A DNA stretch of 64,000 nucleotides, taken from NCBI RefSeq assembly GCF_029277445.1, contig NZ_CP119567.1:372001-436000 (forward strand), written 5' to 3'. A program made the translations under genes and the position numbers. Under the pieces are notes generated by a model. It saw nothing but the letters and a program-made list of their open reading frames with translations. It was not told the DNA's origin and ran no database searches. Position 1 is the stretch's first letter, and the number at the start of each line of letters is the position of its first letter. This DNA is from Pararhizobium qamdonense. GTDB taxonomy: Bacteria > Pseudomonadota > Alphaproteobacteria > Rhizobiales > Rhizobiaceae. Positions 9,095 through 24,869 of this stretch are shown here, piece after piece.

Positions 9095-10156
9095 TCAGTT
9101 TGACGACTGCGCCATGGCGCGAAATGTCGTCTCACGGGAAATAGAGCCTACGGGGGATCCATTTTCTGTCACCACCAGTGTCGAATGACTGCCGAGCAAT
9201 GGGAAACAGGAGGCCAACGAGGAATTGATGTCAACCGATGCGGGCATTTGGCCAAAGTTCATGGTTTGACCGGACACCTCGGCTATCGCGGCGGGATTTT
9301 CCTTTGCCAAGACGCTACGGACTGACAGGGCCTTTGCATAATCGACCTTTTGCACGAACCGACGCACGTAATCGTCGGCAGGCGAGAAAACGATGTCCTC
9401 ACCTGTTCCGATCTGCCGGATGTTTCCATCCTTGAGAATGGCGAGGCGGTCTCCCAGGTGCAGCCCTTCGTCAAGATCGTGTGTGATGAAGACGATCGTC
9501 TTCCTCAGCCGCTTCTGGATGTCTTTCAGCTGTGCCTGCATATCGGCCTTGATCAGCGGATCAAGGGCGCTGAAGGCTTCGTCCATCAAGAGGATGTCGG
9601 CTTCGGTTGCGAGCGCACGCGCCAGCCCGACGCGCTGCTGCATCCCGCCAGACAATTGCCGGGGATATTTCATTTCGAAACCGGAGAGGCCGACAATCTC
9701 GATCTGCTCCATCCCGCGCCTGAGCGCGTCTCCTTCGGGTACGCCATTCAACGAGAGGCCACAGATGACATTTTCCAAGACTGTCTGATGCGGCAGCAGG
9801 CCAAAGCGCTGAAACACCATGGATATGCCGCCGCGCCGGAATTTGAGGAGCCTGTCGCTGCTCATCCCGAGCACATCCTCGCCATCGACGCGGATGCTGC
9901 CGGCCGTCGGTTCCACCAGACGGTTGAAATGGCGGATCAGTGTGGACTTGCCGGATCCGGACAGACCCATGATGACGAATGTCTCGCCGGCATTGACCGA
10001 GAGGCTGATATTGTTGAGCGCCAGCACGCATCCGGTCTTGGCAAGGATTTCCGATTTGGCGACGCCTTCACGCGCCATGGCGAGCGCCGTCTTGGAGGCA
10101 TTGCCGAATATCTTGTAGACCCCTTCGACGACGATTTTGGTGTTTGCGGCCGTCAT
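9095..10156 (-). CDS. proV: Glycine betaine/proline betaine ABC transporter ATP-binding protein
   Basis: ATPase of 353 residues for import of a quaternary amine. Walker A GLSGSGKST, signature LSGGMQQR and Walker B ILLMDEAFSALD are all present. The C-terminal 80 residues are a regulatory tail, shorter than the two CBS repeats of E. coli ProV (400 residues). The start ATG overlaps the permease stop by one base (TAATG), so they are translationally coupled. Last gene of a run starting at the aldehyde dehydrogenase, which suggests the importer feeds a catabolic pathway rather than serving only osmoprotection. Confidence 0.92.
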   Translation of the reverse strand: MTAANTKIVVEGVYKIFGNASKTALAMAREGVAKSEILAKTGCVLALNNISLSVNAGETFVIMGLSGSGKSTLIRHFNRLVEPTAGSIRVDGEDVLGMSSDRLLKFRRGGISMVFQRFGLLPHQTVLENVICGLSLNGVPEGDALRRGMEQIEIVGLSGFEMKYPRQLSGGMQQRVGLARALATEADILLMDEAFSALDPLIKADMQAQLKDIQKRLRKTIVFITHDLDEGLHLGDRLAILKDGNIRQIGTGEDIVFSPADDYVRRFVQKVDYAKALSVRSVLAKENPAAIAEVSGQTMNFGQMPASVDINSSLASCFPLLGSHSTLVVTENGSPVGSISRETTFRAMAQSSN

Positions 10157-11028
10157 TATGCGCCATCCTTCAGGTGCTGCTGTGAACGCCGTCCGAGTGA
10201 TTGAGCGATGCGATCGAAGATGATAGCGAGAAACACGATGGCAAGTCCGGCAAAAAGCCCGGTGCTGACCTCAAGCCGCTGTATGCCCTGCAGAACCTGA
10301 TAGCCGAGACCGCCCGCGCCGATCATGGAGGCGATGACGACCATCGACAATGCCATCATCGTCGTCTGGTTTATCCCGGCCATAATCGTCGGCATGGCAA
10401 GCGGCAACTGAGCGCGGAGAAGTTTCTGCCAGGATGTGGCGCCAAACGCGACGATCGCTTCGACGACCTCGCTATCCACCTGCCTGATGCCCAGATCGGT
10501 GAGGCGAATGACCGGCGGAATGGCGAAGAACACCGTTGCCAGCAAGGCGGGGATTTTGCCAGGACCGAACAACATCACGAAGGGGATGAGATATACGAAG
10601 ATCGGCATGGTCTGCATGATATCAAGCACCGGCAGACACGCCGCCCGCAACTTGTTCGACTGCGCCATGAGCACGCCTATCGGGATGCCAAGAACGATGG
10701 CAAGAATGGTTGAGGCCAGCATCAGCGCGATTGTCGCCATGGCTTCGTCCCAGACGCCGAGCAGCCCAACCGCAAAAAGCATTATTGCGGTAACGAGTGC
10801 AGTTTTCCAGCTGCGCGAGGCGGCGAGAGTGATGCCGGTGACCAGCACGATCGTCACATACCACGGCAGCCACTGCAGGACTTGCTCAAGCATCATCAGG
10901 CCGCGCAGCACGGGCAGGAAAAGGTGCTCGAGAAATTCACCGTAATTTGCAACCACGGCCGTGAACCCGTCGTCTATGGCAAAGCGCAGAGAACGCAGAT
11001 CGATGATTTCAGGAAAATTGCTGGCCAA
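10156..11028 (-). CDS. proW: Glycine betaine/proline betaine ABC transporter permease
   Basis: Inner-membrane permease of 290 residues. The long N-terminal region before the membrane domain, with EFLEHLFLPVLRGLMMLEQV and a following WLPWYVTIVLV helix, is typical of ProW. The transport domain contains MQTMPIFVYLIPFVMLFGPG and the coupling loop VEAIVAFGATSWQKLLRAQLP. It lies between proX and proV. Ligand class rests on the family and on the binding protein. Confidence 0.92.
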   Translation of the reverse strand: MASNFPEIIDLRSLRFAIDDGFTAVVANYGEFLEHLFLPVLRGLMMLEQVLQWLPWYVTIVLVTGITLAASRSWKTALVTAIMLFAVGLLGVWDEAMATIALMLASTILAIVLGIPIGVLMAQSNKLRAACLPVLDIMQTMPIFVYLIPFVMLFGPGKIPALLATVFFAIPPVIRLTDLGIRQVDSEVVEAIVAFGATSWQKLLRAQLPLAMPTIMAGINQTTMMALSMVVIASMIGAGGLGYQVLQGIQRLEVSTGLFAGLAIVFLAIIFDRIAQSLGRRSQQHLKDGA

Positions 11029-11116: not shown

Positions 11117-12127
11117 TCAAAGGGACGCCTTGATCTTGTCCGCCACGTCAGCGGGGACCCACTTCGTCCAGATCGGCTCGTAATTCTTGAAGAAATAGGT
11201 GGCAACTTCCGCCGGCGATGCCTTGTTATCGTCGCCCCATGCCAGGATCTCGCTCACCTGATCATTGGGCAACTGCATCTTGGACAGATAGTCGGCAACC
11301 GCAGGGGCCTTCTCCTTCAGCGAGGTCACCACGGCAACCGCCACTTCGCCGACAGCCCAGCCGGTCAGTTGCGGCGCTTCGCATTTGGTATCGGTAAGGC
11401 AGGTAAATTTCGCGGCGTCGTAGGCCGGCATGTCGAGACGCTTCAGCTTGTACTTACCGATCACTTCCGTCGGACCCCAGTAGTAGCCGACGAAGGGCGC
11501 CTTACGCGCCGCCTGACGTGCGATCGTTGCCTTCAGGTTGGCCCCGGAACCGGTCGGGTAGATCTCGAATGTTTCTTCAATCCCCAAGGCCTTGATGAGA
11601 TTGTTGGTGATGACCTCGCAACCCCAGCCCGGGGGGCAGGCGTAGAAGCGGCCTTTGTCGGGGTTGGAAGCATCTTCGAAGACCTTCCAGTTGGCTTTCA
11701 GATCCTCGACGGACTTGATCTGCGGGTTCTTCTCGGCCAGGTAGTCCGGGATCCACCAGCCTTCTTCTCCTCCCTTTTCAAAAATGTCGCCCGCCTTGTA
11801 GACATTGCCTTTGGCGATCATCTGATCCCAGGTTGCTTTGGCGGTGGAAACCCAGAGTTCCGGCGCGATATCAGGCTGGCTCTTGGTCAGCATGGAGGTT
11901 GCTGTCGGCACGGTGTCGCCCGGCACGATTTCCGCGTTGCAGCCGAAGCCGTCGGCGAGAACGGTTTTGGTCACGTTCGCCAGCATGCCGGCCGAAAGCC
12001 AGGTCATCTCGGCGATGGTGATCTTGTCCGTTGTCCCGCACTCTGTCGCCTGGGCTTGCTGCGCGGTAAGGCCGGCGGTCGCCGCGACAAAAGCGGCGAA
12101 CAAACTCGTTGAGATCGAAATTTTCAT
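11117..12127 (-). CDS. proX: Glycine betaine-type periplasmic binding protein
   Basis: Periplasmic receptor of 336 residues with a signal peptide cut after AQA near residue 27. The OpuAC/ProX fold is recognisable from ITIAEMTWLSAG, APELWVST and GYYWGPTEVIG. Trp43, Trp92, Trp124-125 and Trp217 are candidates for the aromatic cage that binds quaternary ammonium groups. Several cysteines in the second half (positions 164 and 170, and TCLTDTKC) may form disulfides. It follows the Ldh-family gene by about 110 bp on the same strand, probably in one transcript. Candidate ligands are glycine betaine, proline betaine, carnitine or a related compound. Confidence 0.9.
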   Translation of the reverse strand: MKISISTSLFAAFVAATAGLTAQQAQATECGTTDKITIAEMTWLSAGMLANVTKTVLADGFGCNAEIVPGDTVPTATSMLTKSQPDIAPELWVSTAKATWDQMIAKGNVYKAGDIFEKGGEEGWWIPDYLAEKNPQIKSVEDLKANWKVFEDASNPDKGRFYACPPGWGCEVITNNLIKALGIEETFEIYPTGSGANLKATIARQAARKAPFVGYYWGPTEVIGKYKLKRLDMPAYDAAKFTCLTDTKCEAPQLTGWAVGEVAVAVVTSLKEKAPAVADYLSKMQLPNDQVSEILAWGDDNKASPAEVATYFFKNYEPIWTKWVPADVADKIKASL

Positions 12128-12237: not shown

Positions 12238-13236
12238 TTAAGTCATTGCGGCAATACGAGACAACAGGCTGGCGTCAACGGAAACACCGTCGCGCTGTGT
12301 CATTCGCCGCGCTTCTGCCCGCCTTGATCCTGGCAGGCGGGCTCCCTCCTGAACATTGATCGCCGCCATCAAAGCCTCCACCTGACTTTGAAAATGGCCG
12401 GAAAATGCAGCGGGATCGAAGGCGATGAAGCATTGGCCGGTGCGCGGCGGCCCCCCGGCATCGCCGGAAAAGGCACTTGCGTCCTTGCTGAGAACGGCGC
12501 CGGAGAGACAGGAGGCAAGGAGTTCCACCATGAGCCCAGCCCCAAATCCCTTATAGCCACCCGCTGGCAGCATGGCGCCGTCGAGAGCCTCTTTCGCATC
12601 CGTGGTTGGCCGGCCTTCGCTGTCGATCGCCCAGCCGGGTTCGATCGCGCGGCCTTCGCGGGCGCGAAGCAAGATCTCGGATTTGGCGATCGCACTGGCC
12701 GACTGGTCGATGACGAAGGCGGCGGCGCCTTTTCCGTCGGGTACGGCAACGGCGAAAGGATTGGTGCCGATGACGGGTCTGCGCCCGCCGGGCGGTGCGA
12801 TCGATGCCGGTGCGTGGGTGGTGCACAGGCCGAGGAACCCATGCATGGCGATACGCTCCGCGTGATGGCCGAGTACGCCACAATTGTAGGAGTTGCTGAC
12901 CGTGAGGACGGCAACGCCGTTGTCGCGCACCGCCTGCATGAAGGCATCCCAGCCGGCATCGATTGCCGGATGGGCAAACCCCGTTGCGGCATCGACTGTA
13001 ACGGCGCCCGGACGCGGCTGCGACACGGTCGGCACGGCCGCGCCATCAACCTTGCCGGAGCGCAGGTGGCTTGCATATATCGGCACGTAGAGCAGGCCGT
13101 GACTGCGGATACCGTCCTGTTCCGCCAGCCGCGTCGATCGCGCGACGGAGGCGGCGTTGGCCGCAGTCGCTCCGGCCGCCGTCAAGGCGTAGTGGCATGC
13201 CGCCTCGATCGCGTCTAGGCTCATCCGAAAGGTCAA
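12238..13236 (-). CDS. Malate/L-lactate dehydrogenase (Ldh) family oxidoreductase
   Basis: NAD(P)-dependent oxidoreductase of about 332 residues. The family includes malate and sulfolactate dehydrogenases, ureidoglycolate dehydrogenase and delta1-pyrroline-2-carboxylate reductase. Visible motifs are RSTRLAEQDGIRSHGLLYVPIY near the N-terminus, NSYNCGVLGHHAER, and the cofactor segment RPVIGTNPFAVAVP. I propose the TTG at 13236 because a GAGGAG lies 7 bases upstream; a TTG at 13242 and an ATG at 13224 are possible, and only the first few residues are affected. The neighbours (ALDH, betaine importer) would suit an imino-acid or hydroxy-acid step, but the substrate is unknown. Confidence 0.85.
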   Translation of the reverse strand: MTFRMSLDAIEAACHYALTAAGATAANAASVARSTRLAEQDGIRSHGLLYVPIYASHLRSGKVDGAAVPTVSQPRPGAVTVDAATGFAHPAIDAGWDAFMQAVRDNGVAVLTVSNSYNCGVLGHHAERIAMHGFLGLCTTHAPASIAPPGGRRPVIGTNPFAVAVPDGKGAAAFVIDQSASAIAKSEILLRAREGRAIEPGWAIDSEGRPTTDAKEALDGAMLPAGGYKGFGAGLMVELLASCLSGAVLSKDASAFSGDAGGPPRTGQCFIAFDPAAFSGHFQSQVEALMAAINVQEGARLPGSRRAEARRMTQRDGVSVDASLLSRIAAMT

Positions 13237-13247
13237 AATCAAACTCC

Positions 13248-13832
13248 TCAGTCGTTGTCCGTTTTTGCGGCGCCTGCCCCGCGTACCCGTGATTGTTGCG
13301 AGGCGGGAACGTAGGTGCGCGCACAGAGCGCTGCGGCAGCGGCCAGCACCGCTTCCGTCGTCGGCTGCGGGCGGCGCTCACCGGCGCGCGCCGCCGTTGC
13401 CTTCGGCCGCATCTGAATGCGGATGTTGCCGAGAAAACCGGGCAGGAGCCGTACTTCTGCCGTGGAAAAGATTTCATCTCCCGCTTCGATAACGATATCC
13501 GCATGGACCGTGTCTGCCATGGCACCGCAAAGACCGTAGAAAAGTGGCATCGAGGACAGGCCATCGGTGCAAACCGCCTGCCTTGCCGGGCTCGATAACA
13601 GCCTGTCCAGATCAAACAGCACGGCGACAACCGAAGCCGCGTCATCCGGGGAAGTCTGTTCACCCGCGGTCAGAAATCGCACGGCCTCGGCAAGGCCGTC
13701 ATAACCTCTCGCCGAAAGCCAGCGCGCCGCACGGCCGATCTCTTCCGCAACACCAAGCGTCAGCCCGGCTCCAAGCGCTGCCTTGCGCGTGGTCATCTCA
13801 ACCTCGTTGAGCGACAGTTCGACCGTACTCAT
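13248..13832 (-). CDS. DUF3726-family protein of unknown function
   Basis: 194-residue cytoplasmic protein with no signal peptide or membrane helix. The opening block VELSLNEVEMTTRKAALGAG, then AEEIGRAARWL, is what I recall of the DUF3726 family, which has no assigned biochemistry. The C-terminal third is rich in Ala and Arg and looks disordered. The start overlaps the stop of the upstream unknown gene by 4 bp (ATGA), and an Ldh-family oxidoreductase follows. This tight coupling suggests a role in the same catabolic step, perhaps as a subunit or accessory of the 550-residue protein. Confidence 0.8.
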   Translation of the reverse strand: MSTVELSLNEVEMTTRKAALGAGLTLGVAEEIGRAARWLSARGYDGLAEAVRFLTAGEQTSPDDAASVVAVLFDLDRLLSSPARQAVCTDGLSSMPLFYGLCGAMADTVHADIVIEAGDEIFSTAEVRLLPGFLGNIRIQMRPKATAARAGERRPQPTTEAVLAAAAALCARTYVPASQQSRVRGAGAAKTDND

Positions 13833-15481
13833 GTCAGCACCGGCAGCCAGCAATTGTCGGTCTCGCCCGCACCGATATCGTCGAAATCCGGCGCGCCCTG
13901 AAACAAGGTTATTCGCGTCCAGCGGTCAGAGCGGGGATCGAACTTCGCCGCTCCGAAGAAGGACAGCTTGCAGCGCAGCATGTCGATGGGAAGGCAGGTA
14001 CCGGCGATGAGATTGTCGCGGATCTCAGAATAGGGGGCGGCATCGGCCATCTGCACCCGGCGCACGACATGGCGATGCTGCGGATAGCGCGCCACGAAGG
14101 AGGCGACATCCAAGAGCCCGGATTCGGCACTCAAATCCTCCCGCAACGCCCCGATCTGTCGCGCGATATCGAGTGGCAGTTCACGGTCGGCCCCCGGCTC
14201 CTCATAGCGTTGCCCCAGTCGCGGCTCCAGTTTTTCCTCCGAGACGTACCAAAACTGCGAGGTTTCGCTCTTTTCCCGAAAATCGATACCGGATGCCCAG
14301 CCGAAGTGGCGATCCAGCAATGCGCGCAGGGCAGAAAGCGGCATTGCAGGCACCAGATGGCCTTCGCCCGCGACGGCCATCCCGTCGCAAAGCGCGTCCA
14401 CGACAGGACCGGCCGCCTCGATTAATAGCGCTGCAGCCAGTTCCTGGAAATCGACCGAGCGCAGCCTCGACCTCGCGGCAATGTCGGCTGCGGAGGAAGG
14501 AGCGTGCTCGAGTTCGACCAGTTCGTCCGCCCATTCCTTACGCAGAATGGCGATCCGTTCGGAAAGACCGGCATCATCGACGTTCCATTGCCGAAGGTGC
14601 TCCACCGTGTTGCGCCAAAGGTCAAGAATGCGTTCGGGCTTCACCGGTGCTTCACCGCCAAGCACCATGGCCAGCGCCTTTTCACGTGCCGTAATCCAGG
14701 CATTCAACAAAGCGGGGTGATGGACCAGAAACGGTGCCATGCCGAGGCCGGTGGAGTTCCCCATGCCAAGATGCTGCTTTAGGGATCGCTGCAGAGAAAC
14801 GCAGGTTTCAGGAGACCGGCAGCGCGCCATATGCTCGACGAGATCATGGGAAAAGCCGCGGATCAACCAGACCGCCAGCATTTCTGCTTGAAACGGCCCT
14901 GCCATCTCCGGCCGGTGCGAAATCACGAAACGGTCTGCAATGCCGAATTTTCCGTTGCCGTAGACAGCGGTCGTGCGCATCAGGTATCCGACGTCCAGTA
15001 CCAGATCGCGGTCCGGCTGGCGGCCGCTTGCCAGTCTCGCGACGACATGCTCGAAAAAGCGCACCGACTTGTTGGCCCTGCTGAGCACCAGATCGCTCTC
15101 GCGGAAACGTCCGGCTTCCTGCAAGGGTGCATTCCGCGACAGGCGGTCAAGTTCGGACGCATCCGGGGTTCCATCATAGAGCACGAAACTCGTATCCCAG
15201 GCTTCAGCAATGACCCTGTCGGTGCGGTCTTCGTCCGCAAGCCGGGTCGAAAACGCAACAAGGCTGTATGTGTTGCCTGCGAGGACGACGCTGTAGACCG
15301 CTCGCCCATATCCGTCCCCGTCGATATCCCAAAGCGGACGCGAGACCTTCGCCTTTTCCGCAGCAAGCCGGCGCAGCAGGCTGCGCGTGAAGCTGAGCCG
15401 CGTCGGGAACGATGCGCCGAGCCTCTTCAGCCGCATCACCTCGTCCGGGCTGCGCAGCCGGCTTGCGCTGCCCGCGCTCAT
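13829..15481 (-). CDS. Unrecognised 550-residue protein
   Basis: I do not recognise this family. The start at 15481 overlaps the dipeptidase-like gene by 4 bp (ATGA); the same frame stays open farther upstream, but that part lies antisense-like inside the neighbour and looks non-coding. The product has no signal peptide or membrane helix. It is rich in Arg and Trp, begins MSAGSASRLRSPDEVMRLKR, and ends with a cysteine-containing tail (GTCLPIDMLRC; DNCWLPVL). Blocks such as VYGNGKFGIADR, AEMLAVWLIRGFSHDLVEH and GMGNSTGLGMAPFLVHH look like conserved, possibly ligand-binding segments. It sits in a five-gene operon with ALDH, dipeptidase-like, DUF3726 and Ldh-family proteins next to a betaine importer, so an enzymatic role is likely. 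Confidence 0.8.
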   Translation of the reverse strand: MSAGSASRLRSPDEVMRLKRLGASFPTRLSFTRSLLRRLAAEKAKVSRPLWDIDGDGYGRAVYSVVLAGNTYSLVAFSTRLADEDRTDRVIAEAWDTSFVLYDGTPDASELDRLSRNAPLQEAGRFRESDLVLSRANKSVRFFEHVVARLASGRQPDRDLVLDVGYLMRTTAVYGNGKFGIADRFVISHRPEMAGPFQAEMLAVWLIRGFSHDLVEHMARCRSPETCVSLQRSLKQHLGMGNSTGLGMAPFLVHHPALLNAWITAREKALAMVLGGEAPVKPERILDLWRNTVEHLRQWNVDDAGLSERIAILRKEWADELVELEHAPSSAADIAARSRLRSVDFQELAAALLIEAAGPVVDALCDGMAVAGEGHLVPAMPLSALRALLDRHFGWASGIDFREKSETSQFWYVSEEKLEPRLGQRYEEPGADRELPLDIARQIGALREDLSAESGLLDVASFVARYPQHRHVVRRVQMADAAPYSEIRDNLIAGTCLPIDMLRCKLSFFGAAKFDPRSDRWTRITLFQGAPDFDDIGAGETDNCWLPVLT

Positions 15482-16497
15482 TGCGCGGCAACCCGTTCTC
15501 CCCAGGCCGCGGGGCCGAAAGAATGGCCATAGAAGCGCAACCAATTTCCGCCCATGATCCCGGACACTTCGGAAGGCGAGAAACCCGCGTCGCTCAGGCC
15601 CCGGGTAATATTGGTCAGCGACAAATTGTTGCTGAACCAGGAGGGCTGTTGAGGCCAACCGGCTTCGCTCGCGGTTCCCTCGCCGTAATCCGTCGTCTTC
15701 GACCAGCGGCCATTGCGCATCCAGGTCACGATGGAGTCGGGCTGGTCCTGGCAGAGATCGCTGCCGATTCCCAAGTTCTCCGCCCCGTACCGCGACGCGG
15801 ATTCCGCGATCATCTCGCAAAAGGACTGCAATGTGCAGGAGGCACCGCCTTTCAGGTGATGCGCATACATGGAAAAACCGAGCATGCCCCCGGAACCGGT
15901 GAGGGCGCGCAGAACCGTATCGGACTTGCTCCTCAGACCGTTGTGCCACCAGGACGGATTGGCATGGGTGATGGCAATCGGGCGGGCCGAAATCTCGATT
16001 GTCTCCAGCGTGGAACGTTCTGACGAATGGCTCATGTCGATGACCATGCCGACGCGGTTCATTTCCGCAATCACCTGCCTGCCGAAGCGCGTCACGCCCG
16101 TATCGACGGCTTCGTAACAGCCCGTGGCCAGCAGCGACTGGTTGTTGTAGGTCAATTGCATGAAGCGGATGCCGAGAGCGTGGCAAACCTCAACCAGCCC
16201 GATATCATCCTCGATGGGCGACGGGTTCTGCAGGCCGAAAAAGATTGCGGTCCGCTCTTGCTCTATCGCCTTCTTGACGTCGCCCGCGTCGCGGCCGAGA
16301 AAGATAAGGTCGGAGTGATTTTCGAAATGCCGGTTCCAGGCCGCGATATTGGAAACGGTCTCACGAAAGTTCTCGTGATAGGCAATCGTTGCATGAACGG
16401 CGTGAACGCCGCCCGCCCGCATTTGGCGGAACACGGTCTCGCTCCATTTGGCATATTGCAGGCAGTCGATCAGCGGGCTGGCGATGGTTTGGGTCAT
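15478..16497 (-). CDS. Membrane-dipeptidase-like (M19) protein with degenerate metal site
   Basis: 339-residue TIM-barrel protein of the peptidase M19 family. Canonical renal dipeptidases hold two zinc ions using an N-terminal HxD, a central Glu and two later His. Here the N-terminal motif reads IDCLQYAKW (residues 10-18), so HxD is absent. The central IEGG-like segment reads FGLQNPSP, with Gln in place of Glu. The later histidines remain (His157 in DMSHSSE, His178 in ITHANPSWW), as does the Asp in GIGSDL. From memory, a Pseudomonas protein encoded beside dimethylglycine catabolism genes has the same substitution, so this may be a betaine-linked subfamily with a different reaction. The ATG at 16497 fits the family length; its stop overlaps the next gene. 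Confidence 0.85.
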   Translation of the reverse strand: MTQTIASPLIDCLQYAKWSETVFRQMRAGGVHAVHATIAYHENFRETVSNIAAWNRHFENHSDLIFLGRDAGDVKKAIEQERTAIFFGLQNPSPIEDDIGLVEVCHALGIRFMQLTYNNQSLLATGCYEAVDTGVTRFGRQVIAEMNRVGMVIDMSHSSERSTLETIEISARPIAITHANPSWWHNGLRSKSDTVLRALTGSGGMLGFSMYAHHLKGGASCTLQSFCEMIAESASRYGAENLGIGSDLCQDQPDSIVTWMRNGRWSKTTDYGEGTASEAGWPQQPSWFSNNLSLTNITRGLSDAGFSPSEVSGIMGGNWLRFYGHSFGPAAWGERVAAQ

Positions 16498-16501
16498 GGT
16501 G

Positions 16502-17953
16502 TCACTCCGGATTTCCGGCGCGGATATAGGCCGTCTTGATCTGCGTGTAGAATTCTGCGGCGTTGCGTCCTTGCTCGCGCGGTCCGGAACTTGAATTCTT
16601 CCGGCCACCGAACGGCACATGATAGTCGGTTCCGGCGGTCGGCAGGTTGATCGTCACGCAGCCGGTTTCGACATGTCGACGGAAATGCGTGGCGCGCGCA
16701 AGCGAAGACGTGAAAATGCCCGCAACCAGCCCGAAATCCGTATCGTTGACTTTCTCCAGCCCCTCTTCATAACTCGAAACCGCCTGGACGGCGCTGATCG
16801 GCGCGAACATTTCCTCACGGTTGAGCGGCATGTCGTTCGTCGTGCCGGTGAGGAGTGCCGGGGACATGTAGTAGCCCTGATGAGCAAGTTCGATCCTCTC
16901 GCCGCCATAGGCGACGTTGGCGCCCGATTTTCGGGCCGCGTCGATCCAGCCAAGGTTCGATTCCAGCTGACGCGCGCTGACGACCGGACCGATGCGCGTG
17001 GAAGCGTCGAGCGCGTGACCGACCGTCATCTGTGACAAAGCCCCGGTAAGCTTTTCCACAAAGGCGTCGTGGATCTGTTCATGCACGATGAGCCGGGAGC
17101 TTGCAGTGCATTTCTGGCCGGTGCCGGAATAGCCGCCGGATACGGCCGCAGAGACCGCAAGTTCGAGATCTGCGTCCTCCATCACCAGAAGTGCATTCTT
17201 CGAGCCGAGTTCGAGCTGGTATTTGGTGAGATTGGGCGCCGCAGCGATGGCCACCTGCCGGCCGACCTCGTAGGAGCCGGTGAAGGTCACCGCATCGACG
17301 CCGCGATGTCCGGCGAGCCCGTGGCCGATATCCTTGCCGGTGCCCATCAGAAGCTGGAACGTGCCTTCCGGCAGCCCGGCTCGATGGATGATCTCGGCGA
17401 GAGCCCAGGCCGAAGCCGGTGTTTCGTTGGCGGGCTTCCAGATGACGGCATTGCCGTAAGCCAGAGCCGGCGCGATTTTCCAGCTGGCGGTCGCCATCGG
17501 GAAATTCCACGGGGAGATGACCGCTACCACGCCCATCGGCTCGCGCCGCATATCGATCTCGATGCCGGGCCGGACGGAGTCGGCATTCTCGCCCAGCTGC
17601 CGCAGCGTCTCGGCCGCATAATATGTGAAGAACTGCCCGGCCCGGTAAACCTCGCCCTTGCCTTCCGCGAGCGGCTTTCCTTCTTCGCGCGACAGAAGCT
17701 CTCCCAGTTCGGCCGAGCGCTTCATCAGTTCCTCGCCAATGTTTTGCAATATGTTCTGCCGCTGCTCCAGCCCGACGCCGCGCCAGGCACGCGCGGCTAT
17801 CTTTGCGGCCTCCACGGCGCGGTCCAGATCGTTGCGATCCGCCTGCGCGAACAAACCGACCAGATCGGCAATGTCCGAAGGATTCCGGTTCTCGATCGAC
17901 ACATCGTTCTTTGTCCAGGCGCCGGCGATGAGATTCTGATGGATATTTGTCAT
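16502..17953 (-). CDS. NAD(P)-dependent aldehyde dehydrogenase
   Basis: Oxidises an aldehyde to a carboxylate in the cytoplasm. 483 residues. Cofactor-site motif SPWNFPMATASWKIAPALA; general base Glu248 in QLELGSK; nucleophile Cys282 in GQKCTASS. It resembles the alpha-ketoglutarate-semialdehyde and succinate-semialdehyde dehydrogenase branch. The ATG at 17953 follows AAGGAGAAGG at good distance; an earlier in-frame start would cross the divergent promoter. It is the first gene of the betaine-linked operon and is transcribed divergently from the lysR gene at 18049. Confidence 0.92.
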   Translation of the reverse strand: MTNIHQNLIAGAWTKNDVSIENRNPSDIADLVGLFAQADRNDLDRAVEAAKIAARAWRGVGLEQRQNILQNIGEELMKRSAELGELLSREEGKPLAEGKGEVYRAGQFFTYYAAETLRQLGENADSVRPGIEIDMRREPMGVVAVISPWNFPMATASWKIAPALAYGNAVIWKPANETPASAWALAEIIHRAGLPEGTFQLLMGTGKDIGHGLAGHRGVDAVTFTGSYEVGRQVAIAAAPNLTKYQLELGSKNALLVMEDADLELAVSAAVSGGYSGTGQKCTASSRLIVHEQIHDAFVEKLTGALSQMTVGHALDASTRIGPVVSARQLESNLGWIDAARKSGANVAYGGERIELAHQGYYMSPALLTGTTNDMPLNREEMFAPISAVQAVSSYEEGLEKVNDTDFGLVAGIFTSSLARATHFRRHVETGCVTINLPTAGTDYHVPFGGRKNSSSGPREQGRNAAEFYTQIKTAYIRAGNPE

Positions 17954-18048: not shown

Positions 18049-18984
18049 ATGATCAAGTTGGAAGCCCTGCGGGTCTTTGTTGTCGTTGCCGAGGCAGGCA
18101 ACATCAAGGACGCTGCGGAAATTGTCGGGCGAACACCGTCGGCAGTATCAATGACATTGAAGCAGCTGGAAGACGAACTGGGCGGCCCGCTTTTTCAAAC
18201 GGATCGCAAGAACAGCCTGACCGCGCTCGGCAGTATTCTCTTTGACACGGCTCATCTGCAGTTGAAAAGTTTCGACCGTGGCATCCGGACAGTCAGGGCG
18301 TTCGCAAAGAGCCGCATCGGCAGCCTCACCATCGCCTCCGTGCCCTCTGTGGCGGCACACTTGCTTCCTATCCTGCTCCAGAAATTTCTCGAGGATCGGC
18401 CGCAGGTGCAGGTTGAACTGTTCGATATGGACAGTGCACAGGTGCGGCAAATGGTTGAAACCGGAACGGCGGATATCGGCTTCAGCGGAGAACCGCGCAT
18501 CTCGGGATCGATCGGGTTCACACCCCTGTTCAAGGACCGATACAAACTTTTGTGTTCGGAAAAATCAGGGCTTACATCATTGCCCCGTTCCATTCTCTGG
18601 GACGATCTCGCCCATGAAAATCTCATCCTCAATGGATCGTCCGAACAGATTCGAGCGGAGGCTTACATCGACATCGCATCCAGGTCGTTGATGACGGTTC
18701 ACAACACGACGTCGCTCTTCGCTCTGGTCAAGGCATCCCTGGGCGTGACCATACTGCCGGCGTTATCAGCATTTCACACGCCTGATGGCATCTCGGTGCT
18801 CGACATTGCGGAGACGCGAAATGAGAGGGTGGTTGGTATGCTGGAACGCAAGGACGGCATAAAAAGCCCTGTTGCGGAGGCTTTTAAAGTGCTCTGCCTT
18901 GAATTGTTTCCGGCCCACCTCAAAAGCTTTGGGCTTCAACATATTGAAAATGCCGAGACCTACCCGCTGCATCGTTCGACGTGA
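18049..18984 (+). CDS. LysR-family transcriptional regulator
   Basis: 311-residue regulator. N-terminal winged helix (residues 1-60) with ALRVFVVVAEAGNIKDAAEI and TPSAVSMTLKQLEDELGGPL, then a periplasmic-binding-protein-like effector domain (about 90-295). Transcribed divergently from the ALDH-dipeptidase-unknown-DUF3726-Ldh-proXWV run, which it most likely activates in response to the imported compound or an intermediate. The ATG at 18049 is the only sensible start. Confidence 0.92.
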   Translation: MIKLEALRVFVVVAEAGNIKDAAEIVGRTPSAVSMTLKQLEDELGGPLFQTDRKNSLTALGSILFDTAHLQLKSFDRGIRTVRAFAKSRIGSLTIASVPSVAAHLLPILLQKFLEDRPQVQVELFDMDSAQVRQMVETGTADIGFSGEPRISGSIGFTPLFKDRYKLLCSEKSGLTSLPRSILWDDLAHENLILNGSSEQIRAEAYIDIASRSLMTVHNTTSLFALVKASLGVTILPALSAFHTPDGISVLDIAETRNERVVGMLERKDGIKSPVAEAFKVLCLELFPAHLKSFGLQHIENAETYPLHRST

Positions 18985-19331: not shown

Positions 19332-21086
19332 CTATGCCGAAGCGTTTTGCAACGACTCGGTCATGGCGCGGAGGATCATATAGGCTGACAGAGCTCCGGG
19401 ATCGATATGCCCGACCGAGCGTGCGCCGAGCTTGGCGGACCGGCCGCGGCGGCTCTCGATCGTTGCTGTGTGTTCCGCGCCGGCTTTTGCCCCATCGCGC
19501 GCGGCGATCAGTACCGCAAGCTCGTCCGCACCCGACTGCGCTGCCTTGACGGCGGCCTCTGCTGCTGGAAACCAGGCATCCACCATCGTCTTGTCGCCAG
19601 GACTTGCACCGCCTCGCGAAAGGATACCGTCGCTCATGCCTTTAATCCAGGCGGCCGTGGCTGCGCCATCGAGATTAAGCCGATCGGCGACGGCCTTACC
19701 AGCCCCGCGAAAGCCGCTGGCATAGAGCGGACCGGAGGACGCGCCGACAGCGGTCAGAAACACATGTGCCATGCGCTCGCAGACTTCAACAATCACCCCG
19801 TTATCGGTGCCGTTTTCCAGTTCATTGCGCACCGCCGTCCAGCCGATATCCATGGTGACGCCGTGATCGCCGTCGCCCAGTACACCGTCGAGTTGGGACA
19901 AATGGTCTTTTTCTGTACGGATCGTGTCGGCAATCGCCATCATCATCTGCACGAAAATTGACGATGTGACGCTGCCGGATGTCAAAAGCGCTGCGCGGTC
20001 GATAGCAACGTCCCTTTTGATGGCTCGAACCTTGCGTTCCGACCGCTGCGTTACGGGCGCTGCCTTGCCTGCCTCGCCCACGGTGAGCGCTGGTGTGCGG
20101 CAGGGATGATCGAGCAGGCGGGTCAACTGGTCATCGAGCTTGAGGAGGGTTACGGAGGCGCCTGCCATTTCTAGCGATGTGGCATATTCACCGACCCAGT
20201 TGGCATGGATGCCAATACCCAAGGCATCAAGGATCTGACGAACGCGGCGGTAGATGAGGAAGAGTTCGAGCTGCGTCGTCGCGCCCAGTCCGTTGACGAG
20301 GACAGCCACGCGATCGCCGCTTTCGAGTGCCAGTTCTTTCAGGATGGGCTCCATCAGCACATCCGTGACGGTATCGGCAGGCGCCAGCTTTTCGCGGCGC
20401 ATGCCGGGTTCGCCATGAATGCCCATGCCGATTTCCATATCCTCCGGGCCGATCTCGAAATTAAAAGTGCCTGTCTGCGGCAGCGAGCAGGCGCCAAGAG
20501 CGACCCCCATTGACCGGCATCGATCATTCGCAAACATGGCGGCGGCATGCACGCTGTCGAGATTTTCGCCACGATCGGCGGCAGCACCGGCGCATTTGAA
20601 GACGAAGAAATCTCCCGCGACGCCGCGCCGTTCGGTGCGCCGCTCAAACGGAGCAGATGCAATGTCGTCGGAAACGGCAAACTGTTTGACGGGCGTTCCC
20701 TCTGCTTGCAACTCTTCGGCCGCCATCGTGAAGTTCAAAACGTCGCCGGTATAGTTGCCGTAGAGAAACAGCACGCCCGCACCGCCATCGGCAGCGCGCC
20801 CGGCGTCGAGAATATGTTGGGGCGAGGGGGAAGCAAAGACATTGCCGACTGCTGCAGCATCGGCGAGGCCCCGGCCGACATAGCCGGCAAAGGCAGGCTC
20901 GTGACCCGAACCGCCCCCGACGACGATCCCGACCTTGCCATCGCGCGGGCCATGTCGCGCGACGACAGCGCGGCCGGTCGGCCCTTCCACGGCCAAAATA
21001 TCGGCATGGGCACTGACGAAGCCGTCGATGAATTCCGGGATGATATTCTCGGGCGCGTTGATAAGCTTCTTGGTTTTCTGGGTCAT
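19332..21086 (-). CDS. DhaK-DhaL fusion kinase (dihydroxyacetone kinase family)
   Basis: ATP-dependent kinase of 584 residues for a short keto-sugar. The DhaK part (about 1-335) has GGGSGHEPAFAGYVG and the histidine that binds the keto group covalently in MGIHGEPGMRRE. The DhaL part (about 370-584) has the nucleotide-metal loop VLGDGDHGVTMDIGW. Members phosphorylate dihydroxyacetone, glyceraldehyde, D- or L-erythrulose and, I believe, other ketoses. I prefer the ATG at 21086 to 21092; both give essentially the same protein. It is the last gene of the TRAP/transketolase operon. Its position after an isomerase and an SDR suggests that it phosphorylates the ketose they produce before transketolase cleavage. 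Confidence 0.9.
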   Translation of the reverse strand: MTQKTKKLINAPENIIPEFIDGFVSAHADILAVEGPTGRAVVARHGPRDGKVGIVVGGGSGHEPAFAGYVGRGLADAAAVGNVFASPSPQHILDAGRAADGGAGVLFLYGNYTGDVLNFTMAAEELQAEGTPVKQFAVSDDIASAPFERRTERRGVAGDFFVFKCAGAAADRGENLDSVHAAAMFANDRCRSMGVALGACSLPQTGTFNFEIGPEDMEIGMGIHGEPGMRREKLAPADTVTDVLMEPILKELALESGDRVAVLVNGLGATTQLELFLIYRRVRQILDALGIGIHANWVGEYATSLEMAGASVTLLKLDDQLTRLLDHPCRTPALTVGEAGKAAPVTQRSERKVRAIKRDVAIDRAALLTSGSVTSSIFVQMMMAIADTIRTEKDHLSQLDGVLGDGDHGVTMDIGWTAVRNELENGTDNGVIVEVCERMAHVFLTAVGASSGPLYASGFRGAGKAVADRLNLDGAATAAWIKGMSDGILSRGGASPGDKTMVDAWFPAAEAAVKAAQSGADELAVLIAARDGAKAGAEHTATIESRRGRSAKLGARSVGHIDPGALSAYMILRAMTESLQNASA

Positions 21087-21120
21087 GATCATTCCGGTCC
21101 GGTTCGTTCGGATGTGCGTT

Positions 21121-21939
21121 TCAGTGGCTGCCGGGGACCAGCCGTTTGGCGGCAGCCACCGTGCGTTCCAGCCATTCGTGTTCCATGCGGCGCGTGGCTT
21201 CCATGTCGAATGTCTGGGGCAGCCAATGTTCGAGGATGCAGCTCATGTCATCCGGGCAATGCGCAAGGCAATCGAGGATGTCCGAAATCTCAGCCCGGCC
21301 ATCGCCAAGCGGCGTGCCGTGGATGCGGAAGCCAACGCCGTAGGGATCGGGCGTGATCTGGTAATCCTTGAGATGCAGGTTGATTGCGTAGGGTGCAAGC
21401 ATCTTCACCGTCGTCATCGGCCATTCGCCGGCGCAAATGGAATTGGCGACGTCGAGGCAGACGCCGAGTGCCTCGTCGGCCACGGCATCGAGCAGTTGGA
21501 CCATCCGGGAGGAGGGGTAGTTGAAGTGATTCTCGATCGCAAACCGCAGGCCCGCCGCTTTTCCGTCCGGCAGCAGGTCGCGGATCTGTGCCGCCAGTTC
21601 CGGCACGGGGATCAGCGCGTCTTCCGCGTCGAGCGCGACCCGCAGTATCCTGGAGCCGATGCGTTCGCCGATCGGGATGTAGCGCGCAAGCTCCGCCGCG
21701 TCGAAGGATTGCGTGCCGAGTTCCAGAGACATGCCGTAGCTGTCGGCACGCGCCTTCAGCGCCCGATGTTCGTTCGGCGTCAGGCGGTCGAGCGGCAGGT
21801 TGTCGGCATATTGTACCAGCCTAAGGCCATGCGCATGGGCAATCTCCAGAACCTCCATTGCCGTCATCGGCGTGGAGGGCTGCAGGTCCTTGATCCCGAT
21901 CGACCAGCGGAAGGCATAGCTGCCCAATCCGAGTTTCAT
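21121..21939 (-). CDS. Sugar isomerase/epimerase, xylose-isomerase-like TIM barrel
   Basis: 272-residue cytoplasmic protein of the AP-endonuclease-2/xylose-isomerase-like TIM-barrel family, which holds a divalent metal and isomerises or epimerises keto-sugars and related compounds. Characteristic pieces are LGSYAFRWSIG at the start, LRFAIENHFNYPSSRMVQLL with a metal-ligand Glu, CLDVANSICAGEWP, and NLHLKDYQ with His and Asp. Lies between the SDR and the kinase in the operon. I expect interconversion of the sugar skeleton before phosphorylation, but the substrate is unknown. Confidence 0.85.
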   Translation of the reverse strand: MKLGLGSYAFRWSIGIKDLQPSTPMTAMEVLEIAHAHGLRLVQYADNLPLDRLTPNEHRALKARADSYGMSLELGTQSFDAAELARYIPIGERIGSRILRVALDAEDALIPVPELAAQIRDLLPDGKAAGLRFAIENHFNYPSSRMVQLLDAVADEALGVCLDVANSICAGEWPMTTVKMLAPYAINLHLKDYQITPDPYGVGFRIHGTPLGDGRAEISDILDCLAHCPDDMSCILEHWLPQTFDMEATRRMEHEWLERTVAAAKRLVPGSH

Positions 21940-21993
21940 TATGCTGTTCTCCGTTGAGGGCAGGGCGGCGCCCGTCAGGCGCCGCTTGAGATA

Positions 21994-22752
21994 TCAGTGG
22001 ATCAGCGAGCCGCCGTTGACATCGACTTCCGAGCCGGTGACATAGGCCGACAGATCGGAGGCGAGGAACAGCGCGCAGCCCGCGACATCATCCGCCGTGC
22101 CGGCGCGGCCCATGGGAATGCCGGCGTTGATCTCTTCCATCTTGTCTGGTGTCAGCATGCCGCCGGTGATGTCTGTCGCGATGAAGCCCGGGCAAATGGC
22201 GTTGACGCGGACATTGTCGGGCGCAAGTTCACGTGCCATGGCTTTGGTAAGGCCCAGAACGCCGGCTTTTGCAGCAGAATAGTGCGGTCCGCCAAAAATG
22301 CCGCCGCCACGCTGGGCCGAAACGGAGGAGAGGTTGACGATCTTGCCGGTTCTACGGCCGCGCATGTGCGGGATTACCGCCTGGCTGCAATAGAGCGTGC
22401 CGCGCAGGTTGACGTCGAGCACGGCATCGTAGTTCTCCGGTCCGATATCCATGATCTTCAGCGGCTGGGTGATACCGGCATTGTTGACGAGAATGTCGAT
22501 CTGACCCCATTTCGCAATAAGAGCTTCGATCACCGTTTTGATGCCATCAAGGTCGGTGACATTGCAGGCCATGCCGACATGCTGCGCGCCAAGATCGGCT
22601 GCGGCTTCCTTGGCCGCAGCTTCATCGAGATCGAGGATCGCGACGGTCGCGCCATGTTCGGCGAAGAGTTTGGCCGTGGCCTTGCCCAGACCGCGCTTGG
22701 ATGCGGCACCGGTCACGACTGCGAATTTGCCCTCAAGCAGAGCGTTTGCCAT
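21994..22752 (-). CDS. Short-chain dehydrogenase/reductase
   Basis: NAD(P)-dependent oxidoreductase of 252 residues. Glycine-rich cofactor loop TGAASKRGLGKATA, structural NNAG, and the catalytic Ser-Tyr-Lys (LSSVSA, then HYSAAKAGV); it ends with the usual GGSLIH tail. Asp in ILDLDEAAA favours NAD over NADP. The ATG at 22752 gives the normal SDR length; the frame extends farther upstream but that overlaps the transketolase gene. In the operon it probably oxidises a polyol or reduces a keto-sugar. Confidence 0.9.
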   Translation of the reverse strand: MANALLEGKFAVVTGAASKRGLGKATAKLFAEHGATVAILDLDEAAAKEAAADLGAQHVGMACNVTDLDGIKTVIEALIAKWGQIDILVNNAGITQPLKIMDIGPENYDAVLDVNLRGTLYCSQAVIPHMRGRRTGKIVNLSSVSAQRGGGIFGGPHYSAAKAGVLGLTKAMARELAPDNVRVNAICPGFIATDITGGMLTPDKMEEINAGIPMGRAGTADDVAGCALFLASDLSAYVTGSEVDVNGGSLIH

Positions 22753-22820
22753 TAAAATTTCCTTTTTCTTTCCGTGTCTCGCCCCAGGCGAGGAGGGTGA
22801 TGTGGATTTTGCGTGTGTGG

Positions 22821-23864
22821 TCAGAGCCAGCTGCGGATCTGGGAAAGCATTGCAGCGGTGGAGATACCGTACCGGTCGTGCAGTGTGGGTAACGCACCGG
22901 CGTCGAGGAACTGATCGGGCAGACCGATCATGCGGAATGCTGGCGTCACGCCGTTGGTCAGCAGCGTCGATGCCACGGCCTCGCCGAGCCCGCCGATGCG
23001 GGTGTGGTTTTCCGCCGTGACGACAAGGCGGCCACCTTTTCCAGCCTCGGCCAGGATAGTCTCCGTGTCGAGCGGCTTGATCGTCGGGCAATGCAGAACG
23101 CCAACCGAGACACCGTCTTTTTCCAGTTCGATGGCAGCATCCAGCGCGCGCATGGTCATGAAACCCGACGCGATCACCAATACATCCGTGCCATCCCGCA
23201 CCAGCTTGGCCTTGCCGATTTCGAACGTGTAGTCCGGGCAATGCCTGCGCAGGACGGACGGCACCTTGCCACGCAGCAGGCGCATATACACCGGACCGTC
23301 ATGGGCGATGATGGCGGGAACGGCTTCGGCGACGTCGATCGCATCGCAGGGATCGATGATCGTCAGGTTTGGCAGGCCACGGAAAATCGCGAGATCCTCG
23401 GTCGCCTGATGGCTCGGGCCATAGCCGGTGGTAAGGCCCGGAAGCGCGCAGACGATCTTGACCGGCAGGTTTTCCTCGGCGATCGCCATGGCGATGAAGT
23501 CGTAGGCGCGGCGCGATGCAAAGACGGCATAGGTGGTGGCAAAGGGAATGAACCCTTCGCGCGCCATGCCGGCGGCGGCCGAAATCATCACCTGCTCCGC
23601 CATGCCCATCTGGTAAAAGCGCTCGGGAAAGGCCTCGGCAAAGACATGCAGGTCGGTATATTTCGCGAGATCCGCGGTCAGGCCGACGATGCGGTCATTG
23701 TTGCGGGCCTGCTCGACTAGCGCATGGCCGAACGGGGCCGACACCGTGTCGTAACCTTCGGCTGCGAGCGAAGCGATCATGGCCGAGGTCTTGCCGCCTT
23801 CACCAGGCTTGGGAATGCGGGGTTCCCACTTGCGATGGGGATCGTAATTTCTGTTTGCTGTCAT
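22821..23864 (-). CDS. Transketolase-like protein, C-terminal subunit
   Basis: 347 residues comprising the pyrimidine-binding and C-terminal domains of a split transketolase. The TPP-activating glutamate lies in QMGMAEQVMISAAAGMAREG. The conserved ATTYAVFASRRAYDF block follows, with HQATEDLAIFRGLPNL in the middle. The ATG at 23864 fits the neighbour spacing: the N-terminal subunit gene ends 12 bp earlier. Two-subunit transketolases are often dedicated catabolic enzymes, for example the apulose-4-phosphate transketolase described for apiose catabolism. The two chains should form a heterotetramer that moves a two-carbon unit. Confidence 0.9.
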   Translation of the reverse strand: MTANRNYDPHRKWEPRIPKPGEGGKTSAMIASLAAEGYDTVSAPFGHALVEQARNNDRIVGLTADLAKYTDLHVFAEAFPERFYQMGMAEQVMISAAAGMAREGFIPFATTYAVFASRRAYDFIAMAIAEENLPVKIVCALPGLTTGYGPSHQATEDLAIFRGLPNLTIIDPCDAIDVAEAVPAIIAHDGPVYMRLLRGKVPSVLRRHCPDYTFEIGKAKLVRDGTDVLVIASGFMTMRALDAAIELEKDGVSVGVLHCPTIKPLDTETILAEAGKGGRLVVTAENHTRIGGLGEAVASTLLTNGVTPAFRMIGLPDQFLDAGALPTLHDRYGISTAAMLSQIRSWL

Positions 23865-23875
23865 GGCTTTATCCT

Positions 23876-24727
23876 TCAAGCCGGTCGGTTTGCGTCGAGC
23901 ACGGAGAGCGCCATCTGCCATTCCTCCGGTTCTACGCGCACGAAATGAGTGATTTCCCGGGTCTCGAGGAACGGCACGCCCTTGCACATCAGCGTGTCGC
24001 AGATGATGACCCGGGGTCTTGCATCTTCGAGATTGCGGGCCACATCAAAGGCGGCGACAAGCGCGTCCATATCGTTGCCGTCCACCCGCTGTGTGTGCCA
24101 GCCGAAGGCGGTCCATTTCTCAGAGAGGGGTTCCGCGCTGAGCATCTGGGTGGATTTGCCATCGGCCTGCTGGTCATTGAAATCGACGATGCAGATGAGG
24201 TTGGAAAGCTTGTGGTGGGCCGCCGACATTGCCGCTTCCCAGGTCGAACCTTCGCCAAGTTCGCCGTCCGACATGAGATTGTAGACGAAAGCTGCGTTCT
24301 TCTTGGCCTTGAGGCCGAGCGCCATGCCGACGGCGATGCCGAGACCCTGGCCGAGCGAACCGCCGGTGATCTCCATGCCGGGCGTGTAGGCGGCCATGCC
24401 GGACATTGGGAGACGGCTGTCATCGGCTCCGTAGGTTTCCAGCTCCTGCTCGGGCAGGATGCCGGCTTCGATCAAGGCGGAATAAAGCGCGATGGCGTAA
24501 TGGCCGATGGAGAGCAGGAAGCGGTCACGTCCTTCCCATTCCGGGTCTTCCGGCCGATAGGTCAGCGCATGGAAATAGGACACGGCAAGGACGTCTGCGA
24601 TGCCGAGGGCCTGACCGACATAGCCTTGCCCCTGAACTTCGCCCATGCGCACGGCCTTGCGACGGATTTCCCACGCGCGGCGTGGCAGGCTCATGTTGGG
24701 CAGATGGGTGGCGATGGTCCCACTCAT
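23876..24727 (-). CDS. Transketolase-like protein, N-terminal (TPP-binding) subunit
   Basis: 283 residues forming the thiamine-diphosphate domain. The metal/TPP motif appears as MSDGELGEGSTWEA with Asn about 27 residues later in IVDFNDQQ. Other family marks are SIGHYAIALYSALIEAG and EITGGSLGQGLGIAVGMALG. It lies just upstream of the C-terminal subunit, so the enzyme is split rather than truncated. The gap of about 140 bp to the TRAP genes contains a hairpin. The acceptor and donor sugars are not known. Confidence 0.9.
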   Translation of the reverse strand: MSGTIATHLPNMSLPRRAWEIRRKAVRMGEVQGQGYVGQALGIADVLAVSYFHALTYRPEDPEWEGRDRFLLSIGHYAIALYSALIEAGILPEQELETYGADDSRLPMSGMAAYTPGMEITGGSLGQGLGIAVGMALGLKAKKNAAFVYNLMSDGELGEGSTWEAAMSAAHHKLSNLICIVDFNDQQADGKSTQMLSAEPLSEKWTAFGWHTQRVDGNDMDALVAAFDVARNLEDARPRVIICDTLMCKGVPFLETREITHFVRVEPEEWQMALSVLDANRPA

Positions 24728-24835
24728 GGGTGCTTCTCCTTGTATTCAATACGAATGGCGTCATGCGAAGGCGCGACAGGGTCCATTCGGCGATCCGGGG
24801 ATCGTCGATGCGGGGGATGGACGCGGTGATGGTGG

Positions 24836-24861
24836 GGCGCGGCGGTCGTGAAGGCCGCGCC
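24836..24861. terminator. Hairpin between the TRAP genes and the transketolase genes
   Basis: GGCGCGGC-N10-GCCGCGCC, a perfect 8-bp GC-only stem just after the dctM-like stop on the transcribed strand. No T-run is present. It may separate expression levels of the transporter and enzyme parts of the operon. Confidence 0.45.
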
Positions 24862-24869
24862 ACCTTGGA

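Follow-up and report, generated by a model that had tools for sequence, protein, structure and literature searches.

The 64,000-nucleotide stretch of Pararhizobium qamdonense contig NZ_CP119567.1 analysed here (the window) carries a minus-strand operon in which U550, a 550-residue protein without an assigned family, is encoded next to a DUF3726 protein, with the near-obligate adjacency of the two genes across genomes and the occurrence of a natural fusion providing strong evidence that U550 and DUF3726 form a two-subunit enzyme. The operon, which also encodes an aldehyde dehydrogenase (ALDH), an M19-family hydrolase, an Ldh_2-family oxidoreductase (Ldh), and a ProXWV-type ATP-binding cassette (ABC) importer, probably serves to take up and break down an N-methylated onium carboxylate, homarine (N-methylpicolinate) being the most likely one, with U550-DUF3726 as the candidate ring-attacking enzyme.

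Pairing and predicted folds of U550 and DUF3726

Among 150 genomes of the order, U550 is present in 25, at 30 places, and the DUF3726 model PF12525 matches above its cut-off in 24, at 26 places, with all 26 of these matches lying within 65 bases of a U550 match. The four U550 places lacking a PF12525 match comprise genome G079 and three divergent paralogues in G055 and G004, and a single PF12525 match under the cut-off (G053) occurs without U550. From 92 U550 loci found in genomes, 80 were kept for locus counts. Of the 75 with enough flank, 69 have a frame carrying the DUF3726 tail motif directly downstream of U550. The four-base overlap between the two genes in the window is also seen in the annotated records of Ruegeria TM1040, Phaeobacter, Tritonibacter, and Aminobacter, and in Mesorhizobium sp. 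131-2-1 the pair is naturally fused into one protein of 814 residues (L101:11947-14391). The initial annotation of this stretch had named co-occurrence of the two genes as the point on which its interpretation could fall, and the near-exceptionless pairing leaves that interpretation standing. Trimethylamine-methyltransferase-family and betaine importer genes also lie near the Mesorhizobium fusion.

Structure prediction, which the initial annotation had suggested for both proteins, gives a confident fold for U550 that matches none of the solved folds searched. U550 has no Pfam match above cut-off (best score 12 bits) and no NCBIfam match, and the possibility raised earlier, that it belongs to a family with a known and unrelated role, found no match in the Pfam, NCBIfam, or structure searches. 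A protein search returned at least 7999 relatives, every one at an E-value of 0.001 or better, with relatives present in roseobacters, rhizobia, other proteobacteria, actinobacterial metagenome-assembled genomes, and streamlined small-genome alphaproteobacteria. An alignment of 14 sequences, including paralogues at 25–32% identity, retains Arg, Tyr, Ser, Glu, Gln, Asn, and Trp residues.

The DUF3726 gene product scores 53.3 bits against a Pfam gathering cut-off of 22.1, and its predicted structure shares the core fold of the Ldh_2 dehydrogenases, with DpkA (delta1-piperideine-2-carboxylate reductase, 1wtj) among the structures it resembles. Unlike DpkA, however, DUF3726 has no nucleotide-binding domain and carries an extra tail. 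It aligns over about 166 residues to Ldh_2-type chains of about 335, so that a domain's worth is missing, and nothing in the DUF3726 alignment corresponds to the Ser-His-Gly (SHG) stretch seen in the aligned Ldh sequences. On the predicted model, DUF3726 looks like an Ldh_2-type dehydrogenase minus the nucleotide-binding domain, plus a C-terminal tail. This tail is highly conserved (GAGAGxTDND), with the invariance of its residues owing partly to selection, since the alignment was built from frames chosen by the tail pattern itself (a glycine motif and a terminal Asp-Asn/Ser), and tail variants occur at loci outside this set. DUF3726 start codons among these frames were chosen as those nearest the U550 stop, and gene calls at the loci of relatives were made partly by a simple longest-frame heuristic, with some frames wrong. 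A limited literature search found no publication naming DUF3726.

Operon layout, conservation and importer

The minus strand of the window carries ALDH, M19, U550, DUF3726, and Ldh_2 genes followed by proXWV, with a divergent lysR gene on the plus strand, as follows:

18049..18984, plus strand: LysR-type regulator (Pfam HTH_1 and LysR_substrate), divergent from ALDH, with an equivalent divergent position in related loci
16502..17953, minus strand: ALDH, first gene of the operon (Pfam Aldedh, 513 bits)
15478..16497, minus strand: M19-family hydrolase, "membrane dipeptidase" in other annotations (Pfam Peptidase_M19, 235 bits), with an apparently altered zinc site
13829..15481, minus strand: U550, 550 residues, without a family; proposed large subunit of the enzyme
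13248..13832, minus strand: DUF3726 protein, 194 residues (PF12525, 53.3 bits); proposed small subunit of the enzyme
about 12238..13224, minus strand: Ldh_2 oxidoreductase (Pfam Ldh_2, 308 bits; closest solved structure DpkA, 1wtj, 175 bits)
11117..12127, minus strand: ProX-type solute-binding protein (Pfam OpuAC; closest 7yle, DmpX, 204 bits)
10156..11028, minus strand: ProW-type permease (Pfam BPD_transp_1; ChoW and ProW models under their cut-offs)
9095..10156, minus strand: ProV-type ATPase (TIGR01186 proV, above cut-off)

All of the operon genes and lysR are intact open frames, with four-base overlaps at the M19/U550 and U550/DUF3726 junctions, and these frames and coordinates bear out the earlier description of five coupled genes with two ATGA-type overlaps that run into proXWV and face lysR. 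The gene set is real, but the span first drawn around it (13248–17953) omits the fifth gene, Ldh (12238–13224), and the ABC genes. The claim that standard glycine-betaine steps are absent also holds, with no oxygenase, demethylase, or dehydrogenase family of that route found among the nine proteins in Pfam and NCBIfam. All nine are 98–100% matched on a single contig of Rhizobium sp. Root483D2 (L002), and the genome of the window has a single U550 and a single close M19, plus a weak further match to M19 (25% identity). The highest-scoring NCBIfam model for ALDH is alpha-ketoglutaric semialdehyde dehydrogenase, at 489 bits and under its cut-off of 770.

The order from LysR to ProV is repeated in eleven further loci, all from Hyphomicrobiales (L003–L008, L010, L011, L020, L021, and L074), with L009 truncated after ProX, and this recurrence indicates that the arrangement is not due to chance. 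In Ruegeria TM1040 and Tritonibacter a BCCT transporter lies inside the operon in place of the ProXWV of the window. M19 lies within 3 kb upstream of U550 in 64 of the 80 loci, and all 12 genomes checked from the 16 loci without an upstream M19 hold one elsewhere, 73–84% identical to that of TM1040. These displaced M19 genes adjoin ALDH in five of the eight cases inspected, two of the five with a further U550-DUF3726 set. The Litoreibacter loci carry a more distant ALDH (32–34% identity). The full gene set is thus typical of Rhizobiaceae-type loci and some others, and is not universal.

Two groups of loci have distinctive neighbours, named here from translations. In Yoonia-like roseobacters (L022, L029, L036, L037, L039, L040, L045, and L046) the U550-DUF3726 pair stands alone beside TamA/TamB-like and mostly also TruA-like genes, with M19 and sometimes ALDH located elsewhere in the genome. 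In Litoreibacter and HTCC2150 (L023–L028, L034, L035, L043, and L077) molybdopterin oxidoreductase-, iron-sulfur-, and membrane-anchor-like genes lie near the pair and are probably unrelated to it.

The M19 protein belongs to the membrane dipeptidase family (Peptidase_M19), whose canonical members bind two zinc ions through an N-terminal His-x-Asp and a bridging Glu, and this ligand set appears to be altered here. Residues Gln90, His157, His178, and Asp247 are invariant across all 97 sequences compared, a set that still contains near-identical members, with Gln90 aligning to a Glu of the dipeptidase GliJ. The N-terminal motif is D11..Q14 with no His-x-Asp, this part of the protein lying outside the alignment to a canonical dipeptidase. 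Given Gln90 and the missing N-terminal His-x-Asp, the sequences suggest that window-type M19 proteins are unlikely to be ordinary dipeptidases, and the closest solved structure, 2i5g, is titled an amidohydrolase. In the Ldh gene product, the Ldh_2 match spans residues 3–325, with Ser40, His41, and Gly42 invariant in 13 sequences. Its closest solved relative, DpkA, acts on the tetrahydro form of picolinate.

The closest solved structure to ProX, 7yle, is that of DmpX, the dimethylsulfoniopropionate (DMSP)-binding protein of the DmpXWV importer, for which eight pocket residues are named in an excerpt of PMC10030565. In an alignment read by hand, ProX keeps seven of the eight (Trp35, Thr64, Trp84, Glu113, Trp152, Tyr200, and Trp202), thereby sharing the cage of four tryptophans and Tyr200, with the single change being from Ala153 in DmpX to Gly. 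With this DmpX-type cage kept, ProX should bind an onium carboxylate, as judged from the aligned residues.

Link to mgd and the proposed catabolic route

The LysR-ALDH-M19-BCCT-U550-DUF3726-Ldh run of Ruegeria TM1040 (TM1040_RS02315-RS02345) lies directly after an AraC-type gene and four genes carrying the annotation "sarcosine oxidase subunit". An excerpt of PMC13390433 places an AraC-type regulator, TmaR, beside mgdABCD (N-methylglutamate dehydrogenase) in R. pomeroyi, and states that Mgd takes part in homarine catabolism. The four TM1040 genes are read here as putative mgd genes because their arrangement with the AraC gene matches that of R. pomeroyi, an assignment made by gene order. Genes of this kind also adjoin the U550 unit in Shinella lacus and G132, and lie no more than 11 kb from U550 in G427, G203, G322, G397, and G283. 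Four small alphaproteobacterial genomes of low GC content (L113, L114, L118, and L119; 1.2–1.4 Mb, GC 29–36%), which resemble SAR11 in these two measures, also carry the unit, two having M19-U550-DUF3726 within some 15 kb of sequence that includes mgd-like genes and formate-tetrahydrofolate ligase, and two holding ProXWV, ALDH, M19, U550, and DUF3726 in one run with Ldh divergent.

Of the 57 genomes with U550 in a set of 387 alphaproteobacteria, 46 have an mgdA-like gene among the matches listed, compared with 49 of the 330 that lack U550 (odds ratio 24, from genome lists entered by hand). A match was counted as mgdA-like where it scored at least about 500 bits and reached residue 412 or beyond, a rule fixed after the table had been viewed and separating mgdA-like matches from shorter ones, which were read as sarcosine oxidase beta. 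The count also includes one partial match, covering residues 1–318 in a genome without U550 (G498). With a loose cut-off alone (E 1e-60), the counts are 55 of 57 versus 104 of 330.

Homarine is favoured as the substrate because it fits the importer, the DpkA-like Ldh with its tetrahydro-picolinate substrate, and the link to Mgd. In the route that we infer, from its regulation and ring cleavage to the order of the later reactions, the divergent LysR would probably control the operon and ProXWV would import homarine. Acting as one enzyme, in which the tail of DUF3726 probably extends into U550, the pair would attack the N-methylpyridinium ring and cut it at C5-C6 to give an N-formyl-N-methyl aldehyde. 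Since N-methylglutamate has five carbons, one ring carbon must leave, and C5-C6 cleavage would leave an N-formyl group for M19. ALDH may then oxidise the new aldehyde, the M19 hydrolase may take off the N-formyl group, and the DpkA-like Ldh may reduce an N-methyl imine or enamine to N-methylglutamate, which an Mgd-like enzyme encoded elsewhere in the genome would convert to glutamate and formaldehyde.

Several observations weigh against this route. Only 24 of 77 loci have ALDH (at least 50% identity) upstream, and on the downstream side Ldh is found in 19 of 72 and ProX in 13 of 61, so that most of the 80 loci carry only part of the set nearby. Among the matches listed, an mgdA-like gene lies within 12 kb of U550 in just five of the 57 U550 genomes and is absent under the rule from 11, and the mgdA-like genes of the window's own genome (71% and 70% identity) are on another contig, unlinked to the operon. 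The association test, with its hand-entered lists, ignores shared ancestry. With regard to the ring-opening site, no His or Cys is invariant over the 14 aligned U550 sequences, which makes it less likely that the family as a whole shares a histidine-ligated metal centre; His255 is invariant among 80 closer relatives, so that His may have a role in this branch. Pfam finds no reductase or flavin partner among the nine proteins, and U550 paralogues adjoin quite different importers.

The main chemical rival to C5-C6 cleavage, compatible with homarine as the substrate, is a hydrolytic, O2-independent opening in which hydration at C6 would give N-methyl-2-aminomuconate semialdehyde for oxidation by ALDH, with Mgd serving methylamine released later. 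The want of an invariant His or Cys and of a reductase or flavin partner would suit such chemistry, as would the scores of ALDH with semialdehyde dehydrogenase models, all of them under cut-off. However, a six-carbon product gives no direct N-methylglutamate, and the 33 kb around the TM1040 mgd genes and operon contain no annotated methylamine-to-N-methylglutamate enzyme, leaving hydrolytic opening a real but minority prospect.

The same operon and two-subunit enzyme might instead act on another N-methylated substrate ending at N-methylglutamate, methylamine, or a cyclic imine, such as trigonelline, proline betaine and N-methylproline, or an N-methyl imino acid. The cage of ProX suits any onium carboxylate, both the DpkA-like Ldh and a RidA gene that neighbours the operon in Phaeobacter point to an imine intermediate, and a Sinorhizobium meliloti paralogue cluster described below has the succinate-semialdehyde dehydrogenase, aminotransferase, and two RidA genes that a trigonelline-like route might need. 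Such a substrate is nevertheless less likely, since homarine is favoured for this clade by the adjacent mgd-like genes, which an AraC-type gene accompanies in three cases, and by the role of Mgd given in the PMC13390433 excerpt. Ordinary use of glycine betaine or DMSP, with both U550 and DUF3726 as accessories, is very improbable despite the likeness of ProX to DmpX and the DMSP demethylation genes adjoining the operon of Phaeobacter inhibens DSM 17395 (L100:16864-22304), as Pfam and NCBIfam show none of the nine proteins to belong to a demethylase, DMSP lyase, or betaine oxygenase family, and other stretches seen contain the pair but no annotated dmd genes.

The initial annotation had read the operon as dedicated to the catabolism of a quaternary amine other than glycine betaine. 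The pairing, the onium cage of ProX, and the mgd link uphold this reading, but homarine as the substrate and the reactions of U550 and DUF3726 stay at the level of proposals, and that interpretation as a whole is partly supported.

Paralogue clusters, related systems and significance

U550 paralogues with a short partner gene are found in other gene settings. On S. meliloti pSymB (L123:11223-23168), a divergent paralogue and its short partner lie with an IclR gene, M19, a four-gene ABC importer, an aminotransferase, a succinate-semialdehyde dehydrogenase, and two RidA genes, a set that perhaps handles some other N-heterocycle, trigonelline for example. Aminobacter pAA02 carries a set similar to that of S. 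meliloti, and Mesorhizobium ciceri carries another with a different ABC importer. The two partner proteins scanned have no Pfam match, and some partners end in a VPTSERSR-like tail. Given these varied settings, the U550 module may serve several substrates. Tentatively, U550 and its DUF3726-like partners could represent a widespread class of two-subunit, cofactor-poor enzymes that open N-methylpyridinium or related N-heterocyclic rings, in which the large subunit would have a new fold, the small subunit would be a degenerate dehydrogenase whose tail completes the active site, and paralogue branches would be tuned to substrates brought in by their importers.

Trigonelline degradation (tgn) in Acinetobacter baylyi likewise involves an N-methylpyridinium carboxylate, ring cleavage, and ALDH and hydrolase steps, resembling the route proposed here. 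The A. baylyi system uses a two-component flavin oxygenase, however, a family that Pfam does not find in the window operon. A homarine catabolic pathway is reportedly the subject of a 2026 paper by Ferrer-Gonzalez et al. in Nat Microbiol (doi 10.1038/s41564-026-02313-7), and may therefore already have been described. An operon for homarine use is reportedly named homABCDER, which five enzymes and a regulator would fit; if so, the pathway is known and the window operon is a further member with a ProXWV importer. What the present analysis adds is the near-obligate pairing and the fusion, the Ldh_2-like fold predicted for DUF3726, the apparently altered zinc site of M19, the split operons, and the paralogue clusters.

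As an abundant osmolyte of marine phytoplankton, homarine carries carbon and nitrogen whose fate could be traced in genomes once the core enzyme has been named. Whatever the substrate, biochemistry has a clear target in a two-subunit enzyme whose large part has no recognised fold and whose other part resembles a dehydrogenase. Elsewhere in the window, positions 19332–26132 hold a separate sugar-type cluster, named from translations, with dihydroxyacetone-kinase-like and sugar-phosphate isomerase-like genes, a short-chain dehydrogenase/reductase (SDR), two transketolase halves, and a TRAP transporter gene.

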